Part shown: piece after piece, positions 58,075-64,000 of the stretch | Layout of the letters: every line of letters starts with the position of its first letter | Position numbering within the stretch: the stretch's first letter is position 1 | NCBI RefSeq assembly: GCF_000178115.2 | Contig: NC_014828.1 | Span: forward strand, 1-64,000 | DNA length: 64,000 bases | Direction: 5' to 3' | Source: Ethanoligenens harbinense YUAN-3 | GTDB lineage: Bacteria > Bacillota > Clostridia > Oscillospirales > Ethanoligenentaceae | The notes under the pieces: model-generated | Told to the model about the DNA's origin: nothing | What the model saw: only the letters and a program-made list of their open reading frames with translations | Database searches by the model: none | Made by a program: the position numbers and the translations under genes

Positions 58075-58092
58075 CAAACAAGTGAACAAAAA

Positions 58093-58164
58093 GGCAACCC
58101 GGCTATCATCGTGATGAAACATTAGACCCGTGGCTTTGCGTCCCCGCCTTTCGACGGGTTTGCC
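58093..58164 (-). promoter_or_regulatory. Orphan cyclic di-GMP-I riboswitch
   Basis: Read on the minus strand it has all core GEMM-I parts: GGCAAACCCGTCGAAAGGCG, then GGGGACGCAAAGCCACGGGT, CTAATG, a short arm and CCGGGTTGCC, with P1 GGCAA/TTGCC. A good minus-strand promoter lies just upstream. Downstream are hairpins and then the pyrophosphatase gene on the opposite strand. I find no convincing coding sequence for it to control, only a 22-codon ORF without a ribosome-binding site. Confidence 0.88.
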
Positions 58165-58201
58165 GATACATTTTGCAATATTTATACAATTCTCACAATT
58201 T

Positions 58202-58230: not shown

Positions 58231-58472
58231 GTGTATTTCCGTATCTTTTTCAAGGTGTGGGAAGGGCTAAACCGAACCACCGCCACGTAAAGCGGGAGCG
58301 TTATAACGATATGCTTCTGGAAAATAGACCCGCGCAGCCGTGCAAACGCAGGTTTTGGTTCATTTTGTATGGCGCAGTCCTGCGTTTGCCGGAAAAGTGC
58401 ATGCAGGTCCTGAAAAAACCATATTATATAATAAGCCCACTCTTTTTTTGAAGGAATGCATGCAAAAATAAA

Positions 58473-58570: not shown

Positions 58571-59740
58571 ATGGCAAGATTCACATTGCCGCGGGACATT
58601 TATTTCGGCAACAACGCGATTGAAGAACTGAGCAACCTCAAAGGCCACAAAAAAGCGTTTGTCGTTACCGGCGGTCACTCCATGCAGAAATTCGGGTTTC
58701 TCGATAAGCTGGAGGACGTGCTGAAAAAAGCGGGCTTGGAAGTGCAGCTTTTTGCGGGCGTGGAGCCCGACCCGTCTGTTGAGACCGTCTATAAGGGCGC
58801 CGAAGCCATGCGCGCTTTCCAGCCGGATGTCATCGTTGCCATCGGCGGCGGTTCTCCCATCGATGCCGCCAAGGCGATGTGGGTCTTCTATGAATATCCC
58901 GAGAAGAAATTCGACGATATCAAAGACCCGTTCTCCCTGCCCAAGCTGCGGCAGAAAGCCATCTTCGTGGCCGTGCCCTCCACCAGCGGCACCGCGACCG
59001 AAGTGACGGCTTTCTCGGTCATCACCGACTATTCCACCAAAGTCAAATACCCGCTGGCCGACTTCGAAATCACGCCGGACGTTGCGGTGCTCGACTATGC
59101 GCTGGCGCAGACCATGCCTCCCAAACTGACCGCCCACACCGGCATGGACGCCCTCACCCACGCCATTGAAGCCTATGTCGCCGTGGCGCGTTCCCCGTTC
59201 AGCGACCCACTGGCCATCAAAGCCATCCAGTGGGTCTTCGATAACCTCTCCGATTCCTACAACGGCAACAAAAAAGCGCGTGAGCGCATGCATGTGGCGC
59301 AGTGCCTGGCCGGCATGGCGTTTTCCAACGCGCTGCTGGGCATCTGCCACTCGCTGGCCCACAAGATCGGCGCGCAGTTTGATCTGCCGCATGGCCTGTG
59401 CAACGCCATCCTGCTGCCTTATGTCATCAAATACAACTCGGTCGTTTCCATGAAGGATTACGCCGACATTGCCCGCTCGCTCGGCCTGCCGGGCGGCACC
59501 GACAAGCAGCTCACCCATTCCCTCATCGAAGCGGTGAAAACCCTCAATGCCCGTGTGGGTATTCTCCCCACGCTGCGTGAAAACGGCGTGACCGACGAAC
59601 TTTTCAACGCGCACATCGACTTCATCGCCGAGCAGGCCCAACTGGATCCCTGCACGGGCGCAAACCCGCGCGGCACCACGCCGGGCGAGCTGAAGAAGGT
59701 TCTGGAATGCGCGCTGGACGGCTCGCCGCTGAACTTCTAA
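58571..59740 (+). CDS. Iron-containing alcohol dehydrogenase
   Basis: The 389-aa product belongs to the group III (iron) alcohol dehydrogenases. It has the NAD(P)-binding AIGGGSPIDAAKAMWV, the TSGTATEVTAFSVIT segment and the metal site with MDALTHAIEAY, ICHSLAHKIGA and the His in LPHGLCNAILLPYV. It probably reduces acetaldehyde or butyraldehyde to the alcohol, disposing of electrons in fermentation. The start at 58571 (MARFTLPRDIYFG) follows GAAAGGTGA. Codon use is strongly biased towards C-ending codons, as in highly expressed genes. Confidence 0.93.
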   Translation: MARFTLPRDIYFGNNAIEELSNLKGHKKAFVVTGGHSMQKFGFLDKLEDVLKKAGLEVQLFAGVEPDPSVETVYKGAEAMRAFQPDVIVAIGGGSPIDAAKAMWVFYEYPEKKFDDIKDPFSLPKLRQKAIFVAVPSTSGTATEVTAFSVITDYSTKVKYPLADFEITPDVAVLDYALAQTMPPKLTAHTGMDALTHAIEAYVAVARSPFSDPLAIKAIQWVFDNLSDSYNGNKKARERMHVAQCLAGMAFSNALLGICHSLAHKIGAQFDLPHGLCNAILLPYVIKYNSVVSMKDYADIARSLGLPGGTDKQLTHSLIEAVKTLNARVGILPTLRENGVTDELFNAHIDFIAEQAQLDPCTGANPRGTTPGELKKVLECALDGSPLNF

Positions 59741-59973: not shown

Positions 59974-60034
59974 ATCTCCCAAAGACCGGTTTGCATTTTG
60001 TTTTTAAGCAAGGTATATTTAATATGGTTTTTGG

Positions 60035-60063
60035 TTGCGGAAAAATGGATTTCATGATATAAT
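60035..60063 (+). promoter_or_regulatory. Promoter of the hydS operon
   Basis: TTGCGG (60035-60040) and a perfect TATAAT (60058-60063) are separated by 17 bases, about 75 bases upstream of hydS. Confidence 0.7.
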
Positions 60064-60144
60064 GACATCATTGACAAATAATTAACAATATTATGGCAAA
60101 TGGGACGGCGTGCGGTGGGCCGCCGTGCCGGAGGAATAGCGGGA

Positions 60145-61866
60145 ATGAACACGATCATGGGACTGAGCAGGGCGGATTGCAGGGGATGTTATAAATGCAT
60201 CCGCGCCTGCCCCGTCAAATCTCTTTCCTGCCTGGATGAGCAGGTGCGGGTGGTGGATGGGGAATGCATCTATTGCGGCCGCTGTCTGCTCATCTGTCCG
60301 CAGAACGCCAAATATATCCGCGACGACCTGGAAAAGGTGCGGTCCGCCATCGCTGCGGGGGAAAAGCTGTACGCGTCGGTGGAGCCGTCCTGCCAGGCCG
60401 CCTTCCCGGGGGTGGATATGGGCAAAATGGCCTCGGCGCTGAGCGCGTTGGGGTTTGTGCATGCCGAGCCGGTCACAGTGGGCGCGGCGCAGGTCACCCG
60501 CGCATATGACGCCGCCTCCGTGTCGTGGAAAGCGCCCAACCTCATCACTACCGCCTGCCCGTCCATCTATCTGCTGGTGCAGCGGCATTATCCCGAGCTG
60601 GTGGAGCAGCTGGCGCCCACGGTCAGCTTTGCCGTTGCCCATGCGCGCATTATCCGGCAGATCTACGGGCCGCGTGCGCGGGTGGTTTCCATCGGGCCCT
60701 GCATCTCGCAGAAGCATGATGCGCAGGACGGGGAGAGCGGAAATGCCCTGTATGCTTCGCTCACGTTCAGCGAGCTGGCTGCGTGGTTCGCATCCGCCGG
60801 GATTGACCCGCGGGAGATGAAACGCAAACCCATGGGCACCGTAGCGTACGACTATTTTGCCCGACCGGGCGGCGTGATCCATCACCTGGCCAAGGAAACG
60901 CGCCGCAAGTGGGAATGCGTGGCGGTGGACGGGGTGGATCGCTGCGCCGAAGTGCTGGAATCCGTCCGGAGGGACGGGCTTTCCGGTTATTTTCTGGAAC
61001 TCACCGCCTGTGCGGGCGGCTGCCTGGGCGGCCCCATTCTGCGGATGATGAATGTTCCCTATCTCACGGCCAAAGATGCGCTGGTGCATGGCCCCAGGCA
61101 GGAGACGCCCGGTCCCCGCCTGCTCACACAGGGTGTGGAGGCAGACCTCAGCCGTTCGTTCCGCAAACTGGCGCCCCGCCGCTCCCCCATCCGGGAAGAA
61201 GAGATCGCGTCCGTTCTGGCCCGCATGGGCAAAACATCGGTCAAGCAGGAGCTCAACTGCGGCTGCTGTGGATACAGCACCTGCCGCGAAAAGGCCGTGG
61301 CGGTCATCCACGGCAAGGCGGATATCAGCATGTGCGTGCCGTATATGCGTGAACTGGCGGAGAGCATGTCCGCGACGGTGGTGGAAAACATCCCCACCGG
61401 CGTGCTCATCCTTAACGAGAAACTGCAGGTCGAGCATATCAACCCCGCGGCTGTAGCTCTGCTGCACGTGCGGGGCGAGATCTGCGGCCGGTCGGTGGGC
61501 GCGCTGCTGCCGAGCAACGACTTTTATCAGGTGCTGAGCACCGGGGAGAACATCCTGCACCACAAAGTGCGGTATGAGAAACCGGGCATCGTGGTTTCTC
61601 AATCGGTGGTGCGCGTACAGAGCGCCCGGACGGTGATCGTGCTGCTTGAAGACATCACCCACAAGGAGCTGGAAAGCGAAAAGCACCGTGTGATGACCGA
61701 GGAGACCGCGCAGTTCGCGCGCGAAGTGGTGGAAAAACAGATGCGGGTGGTGCAGCAGATCGCCGGGCTGCTGGGGGAAACGGCGATGGAGACCAAGCTG
61801 GCGCTCTCCAAGCTCACCAACACGCTCGTGGAACAGGCGGGTGAGGAGCATGACGCAAGCCATTGA
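60145..61866 (+). CDS. Sensory [FeFe]-hydrogenase-like protein with PAS domain (HydS)
   Basis: The 573-aa protein has two 4Fe-4S ferredoxin motifs (CRGCYKCIRACP and CIYCGRCLLICP, residues 12-51), an H-cluster-like domain with divergent motifs L1 TTACPS (135-140), L2 IGPCISQK (183-190) and L3 TACAGGCLGGP (287-297), another iron-sulfur motif NCGCCGYSTC (371-380), a PAS domain (about 410-510) and a C-terminal helix. This layout matches group C sensory hydrogenases, thought to sense H2 or redox state and signal through a partner. The start at 60145 follows GGAGGAAT. It overlaps the downstream phosphatase-like gene. Confidence 0.9.
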   Translation: MNTIMGLSRADCRGCYKCIRACPVKSLSCLDEQVRVVDGECIYCGRCLLICPQNAKYIRDDLEKVRSAIAAGEKLYASVEPSCQAAFPGVDMGKMASALSALGFVHAEPVTVGAAQVTRAYDAASVSWKAPNLITTACPSIYLLVQRHYPELVEQLAPTVSFAVAHARIIRQIYGPRARVVSIGPCISQKHDAQDGESGNALYASLTFSELAAWFASAGIDPREMKRKPMGTVAYDYFARPGGVIHHLAKETRRKWECVAVDGVDRCAEVLESVRRDGLSGYFLELTACAGGCLGGPILRMMNVPYLTAKDALVHGPRQETPGPRLLTQGVEADLSRSFRKLAPRRSPIREEEIASVLARMGKTSVKQELNCGCCGYSTCREKAVAVIHGKADISMCVPYMRELAESMSATVVENIPTGVLILNEKLQVEHINPAAVALLHVRGEICGRSVGALLPSNDFYQVLSTGENILHHKVRYEKPGIVVSQSVVRVQSARTVIVLLEDITHKELESEKHRVMTEETAQFAREVVEKQMRVVQQIAGLLGETAMETKLALSKLTNTLVEQAGEEHDASH

Positions 61867-62515
61867 CGCCTGTGCGCAAAGCATCGCGCGGTTCGGAGAA
61901 AGCCAGATCGGTGATGCGGCCAAGCTGTTTTACGGGCAGGACTGTGTGACGGCGGTGCTGGTGGATGGCGGCGAAACGATGAGCGGCTGTGTGCTCTCCG
62001 GCATGGTGACCAGCATGTTCGGTTCGGCGCTGTCCCATCCCGTCGCGGTGGACGAAGCGGTGGCCACGGTGGCGGGCATGCTGCCGGTGAGCGGCGGCCG
62101 GGAACCGGTGTTGCTCACCGTGGCGCAGATGCGCGCGGACGGCGCCGCCTACCTTGCGCGGCTGGCCATGCCGCAGGCGGTCTTCCTGCGGCGTGGGCGG
62201 GTGCTGCCGCTCGTTTTCACGCCCCGCCGATGCGGCCCCGTTGTGCTGGAAGAGGCGCGCCTGCAACTCAAGTCCCGCGACACGCTGGTCTGCTTCGGGC
62301 ATGGCGTTGCGCGTGCAGGCGAGGGCGTACCCTATGCCGCGGGTTGGGAAAACGTTTTGCTTCCCGCCTATTTGCAGGCGGCCTATACGCCGTCCGTTCC
62401 GGCCGGGAAACTGGTGGAGCTGCTGCTCGGCATTAGCTGCTCGCTCTGTGGTGAAAAGCCGCGCAGCGATCTTTCGGCCGCCGTGCTTCGCTACCGTGCC
62501 GTGCGGGAGGGATGA
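61850..62515 (+). CDS. Degenerate PPM/SpoIIE-like phosphatase-domain protein
   Basis: The roughly 221-aa protein sits where HydS systems commonly encode a PP2C/SpoIIE phosphatase. It has a PPM-like start (QIGDAAKLFYGQDCVTAVLVDG) but the usual DGMGSG region reads DGGETMSG. The later segment expected as SDG is CFGHGVARAGEG, so a metal-binding Asp appears to be His151. It may be a non-catalytic binding partner or a much diverged enzyme. The gene overlaps hydS by 17 bases and ends 2 bases before the next gene. The start is unsettled (ATG 61850 or GTG 61841). Confidence 0.6.
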   Translation: MTQAIDACAQSIARFGESQIGDAAKLFYGQDCVTAVLVDGGETMSGCVLSGMVTSMFGSALSHPVAVDEAVATVAGMLPVSGGREPVLLTVAQMRADGAAYLARLAMPQAVFLRRGRVLPLVFTPRRCGPVVLEEARLQLKSRDTLVCFGHGVARAGEGVPYAAGWENVLLPAYLQAAYTPSVPAGKLVELLLGISCSLCGEKPRSDLSAAVLRYRAVREG

Positions 62516-62517
62516 CG

Positions 62518-64000
62518 ATGCCCTGCTACAAAACGCTTTCGTTGGAGATCCGTGAGCCTGGGCGGCGGAAACGGGAACTGATGGATACCGCCCTGCTGTC
62601 CTATACCCGCGCGTTGGAGCAACTGCTGCGGCAGTGCCGGGAGCCGGTGCAGGCGCTGGCCCGGGGCGGCCGGCGCGTCACGCGTGCGCAGGTGCAGGCG
62701 CTGGCGGACAAGGATATGCTGCGTGCACTCAATGTTTACGGTGTGCAGCCCTTCAAGGACTCGCTCAAGCAGGATTTTGCCACTATTTTGCTCAGTTTTG
62801 CCGCGCGCTGGCAGAAGTCGGGCGGCCAGGCGGGCTATCCCTGTGTCCGCCTGGAGCCGGAGGAGGCGGATGCGCGGATCCGCGCCCTGACGGACGCTTA
62901 CGATGCGGGAATGCTTTCGGCCGCAGAGATGCGCGGGCGGCTGGCGGTTGTGCTTGCGCACAGTGGGCGGGTGCATCCGCTCTATTTCGGGCGGTATGCC
63001 GCCGCGCGGGACTATTGCCTGCTCTATGATCCCGGTACCGGGCGTTTTTTCGCCAAGCTGCACCTGCTCAATGCCAAAAGCCGTTTGCCGCCGGCGCCTT
63101 TCGGGCGCGAACTGCGCGTAGTGGCGCCCGGTCTTCCGTCTGCTCAGGCAACGGACGGCCCCCGGCGGTTCATCGTGGTGCCGCTGTCGTTCGGCAAAGC
63201 GCAGCAGGAGGTGCTGCGGCAGGCTCTGGACCATCCGCAGATTCTCCGCACGGCAAGGCTGGTGCGGCACGGCGACGCATACCGTCTGGTGCTGAGCGTG
63301 GAGGTATCCTGCAATGCGTGCGTGGTGCCGCAGGCGACGATGGGCGTGGCGCGAGCAGCCGCGGCGCTGGCCTGCACGGTGTGCGGCAGGGATGGCGCCG
63401 TGCAGGGAAACGCCATGCTCTCCGCGAGAGGCGGGCAGATGCTGTTCTGCCTGGCGAAGGAGATCACTGCGCGCGCATTGGAGGCACGCGCACAGGTGGT
63501 GCTGGAAGCAAACGGCGGTCGGGGCGACGGCTTTCTCCTGCGGGATGGCGGCCGTTTCCAGCCGGAGGTGTTCCCTGCCGGGCAATATATGCGGCTGGAG
63601 CATATCCTGCGGTATAAACTCGTGGAAGCGGGGCTGCCTCCGCCTGTATGTGTCAGCGGCAGCGGCTTGAACATCACCTGCCCCCGCTGTGGGGCGGTTA
63701 CCCGAAAAAACCGTCTTTCCCCGCAGATGTTCGCCTGTGTTGCCTGTGGATACGCAGCGCCCTTTCCGTTCGTGGGCAGCCGCAACCTTGCCGTCCGGCT
63801 GCAGAAATACGCGGGCAACAAGGTGCCCGTGTATGTGCGGGAGGAAAACGGCATGCGGCACTATTTCAACGACGCGCTGGGTTTTTCCTGCACGGTGCCC
63901 GCCGAGGACGGAGAGACCGTGGTGTTTTACGAGTTGAGCCTGATGGCGAAAGGCCGGCAGGAGGACTGGTGCGAAGGCAAAAAATACGCCATGCTCTGCA
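62518..64000 (+). CDS. TnpB/Cas12-like protein, predicted nuclease-dead (partial, runs off window)
   Basis: The frame is open from 62518 to the window end (494 aa, no stop). The N-terminus (YKTLSLEIREPGRRKRELMD) and FIVVPLSFGK...YRLVLSVEV resemble TnpB/Cas12 wedge regions. The C-terminal half has a RuvC-I strand ATMGVARAAAALA (GIDxG expected, Asp is Ala278), RuvC-II VVLEANGG (Glu330 kept), the bridge-like LEHILRYKLVEAGLPPPVCV, a zinc finger CPRCG..KNR..FACVACGY (Cys 388, 391, 407, 410) and RuvC-III PFPFVGSRNLA (Asp of DxNAAxN is Pro417). Both catalytic Asp are lost. About 70 further residues are unlike TnpB. GGGAGGG lies 6 bases before the ATG. It is tightly coupled to the phosphatase-like gene. 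Confidence 0.72.
   Translation, partial: MPCYKTLSLEIREPGRRKRELMDTALLSYTRALEQLLRQCREPVQALARGGRRVTRAQVQALADKDMLRALNVYGVQPFKDSLKQDFATILLSFAARWQKSGGQAGYPCVRLEPEEADARIRALTDAYDAGMLSAAEMRGRLAVVLAHSGRVHPLYFGRYAAARDYCLLYDPGTGRFFAKLHLLNAKSRLPPAPFGRELRVVAPGLPSAQATDGPRRFIVVPLSFGKAQQEVLRQALDHPQILRTARLVRHGDAYRLVLSVEVSCNACVVPQATMGVARAAAALACTVCGRDGAVQGNAMLSARGGQMLFCLAKEITARALEARAQVVLEANGGRGDGFLLRDGGRFQPEVFPAGQYMRLEHILRYKLVEAGLPPPVCVSGSGLNITCPRCGAVTRKNRLSPQMFACVACGYAAPFPFVGSRNLAVRLQKYAGNKVPVYVREENGMRHYFNDALGFSCTVPAEDGETVVFYELSLMAKGRQEDWCEGKKYAMLC

Follow-up and report, generated by a model that had tools for sequence, protein, structure and literature searches.

What does a nuclease-dead relative of TnpB and Cas12f do in the operon of a hydrogen sensor? 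The question is raised by a gene at the end of the first 64,000 bases (1–64000, here called the window) of the complete 3,008,576-bp chromosome of Ethanoligenens harbinense YUAN-3. This tnpB-like gene follows hydS, which codes for a sensory [FeFe]-hydrogenase, and a phosphatase-like gene. HydS and its homologue HfsB have been suspected for years of regulating hydrogenase and ethanol genes, and the route from sensor to promoter has been missing. Cells that lack hfsB express more adhE and yield more ethanol (PMC5707799), and the role of HydS is called unclear in the current literature (PMC10055695). The original prediction for this locus held that the dead TnpB might serve as an RNA-guided output module for H2 sensing. 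Sequence comparison supports this idea by way of a guide RNA candidate, its guide-like 3′ end, and candidate sites in hydrogenase promoters. We propose, with a probability of about 0.7, that the protein is a domesticated nuclease-dead TnpB/Cas12f relative that has become an RNA-guided transcription factor, probably an activator, which controls hydrogen metabolism and is linked to the HydS sensor.

Protein sequence and fold

The gene occupies positions 62518 to 64000 (+) of the window and codes for 512 residues. Translation could start at ATG 62512 or ATG 62518, of which the latter appears to be the better choice judged by the starts of homologues. The frame runs uninterrupted to the end of the stop codon at 64056; extension past the window therefore revealed a complete gene, free of frameshift or truncation, with a guide-RNA-like region directly downstream. 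The ordered TnpB/Cas12 signature that had been described is indeed present, as are the three residues singled out in it: RuvC-I aspartate is replaced by alanine (A278 from ATG 62518; A280 in P0001 numbering), RuvC-II glutamate is kept (E330; E332 in P0001), and the RuvC-III position is proline (P417; P419 in P0001). Among 33 aligned family members, the RuvC-I aspartate is replaced in all 33 and the RuvC-II glutamate in 23. Alignment to AsCas12f places glutamate or aspartate at the RuvC-III position in 29 of the 33, so a universal loss of the RuvC-III aspartate had to be rejected. RuvC-I is the only catalytic residue lost in every member, and the intact catalytic triad of type V-F Cas12f was not found in this family. 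The four zinc-finger cysteines (here C390/C393/C409/C412) are kept in 33/33. The Pfam TNB domain is matched by 30 of the 33 homologues (best E 9e-8); the E. harbinense protein itself is a weak match below the cut-off (E 7e-4).

A family profile searched against PDB chains matched Cas12f at E 3.9e-12. The AlphaFold2 model of the E. harbinense protein (pLDDT 87.8, pTM 0.72) contains the predicted RuvC fold and most closely resembles Cas12f1, with Z 19.5 and a root-mean-square deviation (rmsd) of 3.4 over 332 residues; TnpB (Z 15.5) and dCas12f (Z 15.2) follow. The TnpB/Cas12f fold spans residues ∼1–437 of P0001, followed by an extra domain at ∼438–514. The C-terminal extension noted earlier is thus real: it comprises about 75 residues and occurs across the family. 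Its sole clear structural match in the model is a putative antitoxin (3k6q; Z 8.8, rmsd 2.6, 84 residues, Foldseek E 0.04), on which basis we call this predicted domain HicB-like. No RNA-polymerase-binding fold appeared among the structural matches listed for it.

Conservation of the operon

In E. harbinense, hydS lies at 60145..61866 (+) and codes for a ferredoxin domain, an H-cluster domain, an FeS domain, and a PAS domain. The phosphatase gene (61850..62515, +) starts inside the 3′ end of hydS and is itself overlapped or directly adjoined by the tnpB-like gene; these coordinates bear out the tight packing first described. A search of 59 near genomes with the single protein returned one relative, a frameshifted homologue with 49% identity in a metagenome-assembled genome (MAG) of the same genus (G001). 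The in-frame stops of this copy resemble frameshifts near an A-run; as the downstream RNA is intact, they are more probably sequencing errors of a poor MAG than signs of decay.

Searching 391 genomes of the class provided 14 further members (29–38% identity), each with hydS and a phosphatase gene upstream on the same strand (14/14). A scan of genome contigs with the single protein as query gave no match; a profile query succeeded. Across 84,980 species the profile identified 28 named loci, partly in the same genomes as the 391-genome search, from Caproiciproducens, Caloramator, Christensenella, Petroclostridium, Ruminiclostridium, and other genera. hydS is present at 28/28 of these loci and the phosphatase gene at 27/28. 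At least 33 Clostridia carry a homologue behind hydS and a SpoIIE-type phosphatase gene. The dead TnpB in a hydS operon is real, and it represents a clostridial family rather than a peculiarity of E. harbinense. The usual order is [nuoE-nuoF-hydA], small 2Fe-2S protein, hydS, phosphatase (PF07228), [adhE, in one group], tnpB-like gene; nuoE of E. harbinense lies elsewhere on the chromosome, away from the hydS operon. Since the survey of relatives found the order hydS-phosphatase-tnpB-RNA kept in more than 30 species, the association must be more than chance.

The phosphatase slot holds full-length 390-residue SpoIIE-domain proteins in most other species, and one relative's protein matches PF07228 at 1e-17. 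The E. harbinense gene codes for a short, degenerate SpoIIE/PP2C-type homologue of about 222 residues (25–29% identity to relatives) that matches no Pfam family. In the Ethanoligenens/Caproiciproducens clade, the phosphatase was apparently cut to about 220 residues while hydS and the dead TnpB were kept. Hence, the signaling step may differ in this clade.

The same conservation decides whether the gene could be decaying or could be what is left of an ordinary IS200/IS605 or IS607 TnpB. The TnpB-like fold and the frameshifts in the low-quality MAG would fit such an origin. Yet synteny, zinc finger, and RNA have been kept over more than 30 species, the genome contains no other PF07282 match, each genome has a single RNA copy, and no transposase neighbor was seen. 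Mobility, multiple copies, a transposase, or element ends, which would mark a TnpB of these elements, were not found. We consider this origin, and with it the suspicion of a decaying IS200/IS605 copy, refuted by conservation and give it next to no weight.

A downstream RNA with a guide-like 3′ end

Right behind the stop codon follows a non-coding stretch that is conserved between E. harbinense and its same-genus relative and has a counterpart at nearly every other homologue. In the numbering of the window, continued beyond its end, the predicted guide-RNA scaffold extends over 64077–64185, the putative guide UAUUUAUAUAAA forms the RNA 3′ end at 64180–64191, and a terminator follows at 64192–64222. 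The RNA is predicted to form a GGUGC...GCACC stem-loop and further hairpins; a pseudoknot arises from base pairing between GCUGC in the loop and GCAGC at the 3′ end. Folding the scaffold by itself as one sequence gives an unremarkable result (z −1.1), so the support for this structure comes from covariation. In 29 RNA sequences, 95.9% of the cells are paired, as opposed to 18–52% in slid controls; compensatory changes occur in 11 of 16 pairs, and the pseudoknot is 100% paired with both-sided GC to AU changes. No Rfam family matched the RNA at gathering score. A covariance model located one strong copy adjoining the gene in each of 23 genomes; other matches were far weaker (best 4e-4).

Behind the pseudoknot strand there are 8–17 nucleotides (nt) and then, in nearly all cases, the terminator. 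The first five of these nucleotides are TATTT (TATTTA..) in the Ethanoligenens/Caproiciproducens clade and TATCT in almost all other genomes. We infer that the 3′ end (UAUCU../UAUUUA..) is a short, hard-wired guide beginning with these five bases, which lie where TnpB and Cas12f RNAs have theirs.

Matching sites in hydrogenase promoters

The first 5–6 nt of the putative guide, preceded by (A)ACCN as a candidate target-adjacent motif (TAM), occur again upstream of promoters of the hydS and nuoEF-hydA operons. In four related genomes, AAAACC[AG]TATCT occurs in one or two copies upstream of the hydS operon promoter, and Caproiciproducens has AAAAACCATATTTA upstream of this promoter. The nuoE promoters of Ruminiclostridium and others contain ACC[GT]TATCTA. 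We defined a site as [AG]CCN plus the first five guide bases of the same genome and counted 54 hydS and nuoE promoters. With the genome's own guide, 25 of the 54 have a site on the forward strand and none on the reverse strand; with guide base 4 swapped, the number drops to 3. Control sets contain few sites (2/157 unrelated promoters, 0/12 promoters of nuoE paralogues), and in a shuffle control 19 of 47 promoters have one where 0.8 would be expected. Guide and site tend to share the base at position 4 (guide/site: C/C 24, C/T 3, T/T 5, T/C 0). In the nuoE promoter of E. harbinense, the site ATACCA-TATTTACAATG lies some 142 nt ahead of nuoE (near G000:C1:2,804,059) and has the T predicted from the guide of this organism. 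The nuoE promoters of Caproiciproducens have no site at the usual place.

Could the ACCNTATCTA sites instead be read by an ordinary DNA-binding protein? The similarity to the RNA would then be coincidence or decoy, and the dead TnpB would work solely at the RNA level or by means of its extra domain. A match of just 5–7 nt is short enough to allow this, Rex and other regulators act at the same promoters, and the genome-wide excess of the motif is small. An ordinary protein would, however, not account for a polarity that is exactly that of TnpB and Cas12, with the TAM 5′ of the guide match and the guide at the RNA 3′ end, nor for own-guide matches in 25 promoters vs 3 of 54 after a single base swap and their rarity in unrelated promoters. 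This explanation strikes us as improbable.

Site geometry and mode of action

The putative hydS promoter of E. harbinense (TTGCGG-17-TATAAT, 60035..60088, +) overlaps a Rex-like palindrome (TTGACAAATAATTAACAA, 60071–60088). Geometry was read from clear promoters only (score 11/13 or better). In all of these the guide match starts at −59, −78, or −88 to −90, upstream of the −35 element and always facing the gene, and a Rex operator (12–14/14) lies at −2/−3. The sites are located about 24–55 bp upstream of −35, none over the promoter core, at distances near whole helix turns. Since they keep to one orientation and to these positions upstream of −35, we propose activation: the arrangement is that expected of a class-I activator working against a repressor bound at the start site.

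The original prediction also pointed to TldRs, nuclease-dead TnpB homologues that act as RNA-guided repressors. If the present protein worked as they do, the complex would block RNA polymerase or other factors at hydrogenase promoters; known TldRs repress by binding promoters or gene bodies (PMC13418256). The increased adhE expression after hfsB deletion in Thermoanaerobacterium (PMC5707799) implies that some branch of the circuit is repressive; no homologue of the dead tnpB-like gene was found in Thermoanaerobacterium. A roadblock, however, would require neither a single orientation nor spacing near helix turns, the sites never cover the promoter core, and the start site is already taken by the Rex operator. 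We therefore regard repression as unlikely, although less so than recognition by an ordinary protein. At the level of sequence, the likeness to TldRs holds for the dead RuvC, the downstream RNA, and the candidate host targets; the site geometry favors activation.

We lean slightly toward a specific form of the activator model, an H2-responsive RNA-guided class-I activator in which HydS and the phosphatase control the dead Cas12f and a permanently wired guide of ∼6–10 nt selects hydrogenase promoters. The protein would bind the RNA encoded downstream of its gene, and the complex would read the ACC-type motif as TAM and open about 6–10 bp upstream of the promoters. Its predicted targets are the promoters of nuoEF-hydA, which encodes the electron-bifurcating hydrogenase; several lineages would add the promoter of the hydS operon itself. 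There the bound complex may help RNA polymerase in class-I style, while Rex at the start site would oppose it and add control by NADH. HydS, via the phosphatase, would set the activity of the complex according to H2 or redox state.

Several observations weigh against an RNA-guided activator. The preference at position 4 has a Fisher p of 3e-4 without correction for phylogeny, and the C/T change represents one, perhaps two events. Part of the promoter set was also used to discover the motif; for this reason seven later nuoE promoters outside motif discovery are the cleaner test, and 4 of the 7, the E. harbinense one included, show the site where it was expected. Among the hydS and nuoE promoters counted, those of Christensenella, Caloramator, and several others have no site. 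The guide-target match usually extends over 5–7 nt, reaching 8–10 in a few species, and so short a guide is unusual. Genome-wide, TAM plus guide occurs 179 times vs 118 for the reversed control, a modest excess, from which it follows that specificity must come from more than the letters of the motif. E. harbinense has only a degenerate, reversed site at its hydS promoter: just upstream of the promoter, AAAACCATATTAA (60019..60031, −) is TAM-like with a guide match of only 4 nt. This is one of only three AACCNTATTWA sites in the genome. The core of the E. harbinense nuoE promoter could not be located reliably. Finally, the argument for activation is geometric, and it is gene order that suggests the link to HydS signaling.

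Relation to known systems

TldRs are RuvC-dead TnpB-type proteins associated with fliC and csrA (PMC13418256). Like them, the present family combines a dead RuvC and a guide RNA encoded immediately downstream with a stable tie to non-transposon genes, and its candidate targets, too, belong to the host (PMC13418256); matches to host regulatory targets beside a TAM are seen here as sequence recurrence, with a short match. Unlike TldRs, this family is tied to a hydrogen sensor and a phosphatase, contains a HicB-like C-terminal domain, and is closest in structure to Cas12f rather than TnpB. Its putative guide is hard-wired and conserved across families with just ∼6 conserved nt, and its sites lie upstream of promoters in an activator-like arrangement. 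The TldR literature that we searched, to which the clade lists of the founding TldR paper do not belong, records associations with flagellin and CsrA and none with a hydrogenase.

Type V-F Cas12f (AsCas12f1, 7wju; SpCas12f1, 9i8y) is the closest relative by fold and profile match and shares the zinc-finger TNB domain. In the Cas12f RNA scaffold a pseudoknot adjoins the guide, as it appears to do here. In contrast to Cas12f, the present family has lost the catalytic aspartate, has one fixed RNA, and resides in a chromosomal metabolic operon; no CRISPR repeat array was found within about 5 kb of the tnpB-like gene. PDB entries 9n9c/9n9m, a dCas12f associated with an extracytoplasmic function (ECF) sigma factor, offer a precedent for a nuclease-dead Cas12f directing transcription, as proposed for the present family. 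The sites described here differ in preceding ordinary sigma-A-like promoters, and no cognate sigma factor gene was recognized among the operon neighbors, judged partly from sequence. HydS/HfsB systems of Ruminococcus albus and Thermoanaerobacterium have the same sensor and a neighboring serine phosphatase (PMC11837493); the HydS/HfsB literature searched describes no TnpB-like partner.

For HydS we can now name a candidate output protein together with the RNA and the predicted binding sites of that protein. If the assignment is correct, it would provide the missing link between H2 sensing and the control of H2 production, and would carry RNA-guided transcription factors beyond phage and flagellar contexts into core energy metabolism. 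It would also illustrate how far a guide can be shortened and fixed, in a CRISPR-type protein turned ordinary metabolic regulator with a recognition site the size of a transcription factor's. These possibilities are relevant to Ruminiclostridium cellulolyticum and other biofuel organisms.

Additional guide matches and neighboring features

As a genome-wide regulon marker, AAAACCRTATYT was rejected: no clear regulon emerged, and most inspected matches are inside genes. A search for tandem AACCRTATC...AACCRTATC returned the hydS promoters of the four related genomes and a few probably chance matches. The only other exact copy of TATTTATATAAA in the E. harbinense genome, a 12-nt guide match at G000:C1:2481717-2481729, lies some 55 nt ahead of a nifH-like gene. 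It was set aside because it is inside a palindrome with 9-nt arms (GTATTTATA..TATAAATAC) and without supporting comparison. In three related genomes, AAAACCGTATCTGA(C/T)CC, a TAM with a 7–8 nt guide match, recurs inside an apparently conserved gene after a nuoE paralogue, which probably reflects coding conservation. Upstream of nuoE, Christensenella (L108 55-69, −) has TATCTGT twice, at a distance of 14 bp; both copies match the local guide over 7 nt but are flanked differently (CCRTT), and none was seen in related species.

The upstream neighbor of hydS is an iron-containing alcohol dehydrogenase gene (58571..59740, +). About 150 nt upstream of its start, AAAAACCATATTATATAATAAG (window position 58417, +) is TAM-like with a 4 nt guide match, which rises to about 10 nt with one base bulged. 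Also upstream of this gene, a c-di-GMP-I-GGC riboswitch was identified at 58089–58173 (−) with a score of 71 bits (gathering 59).
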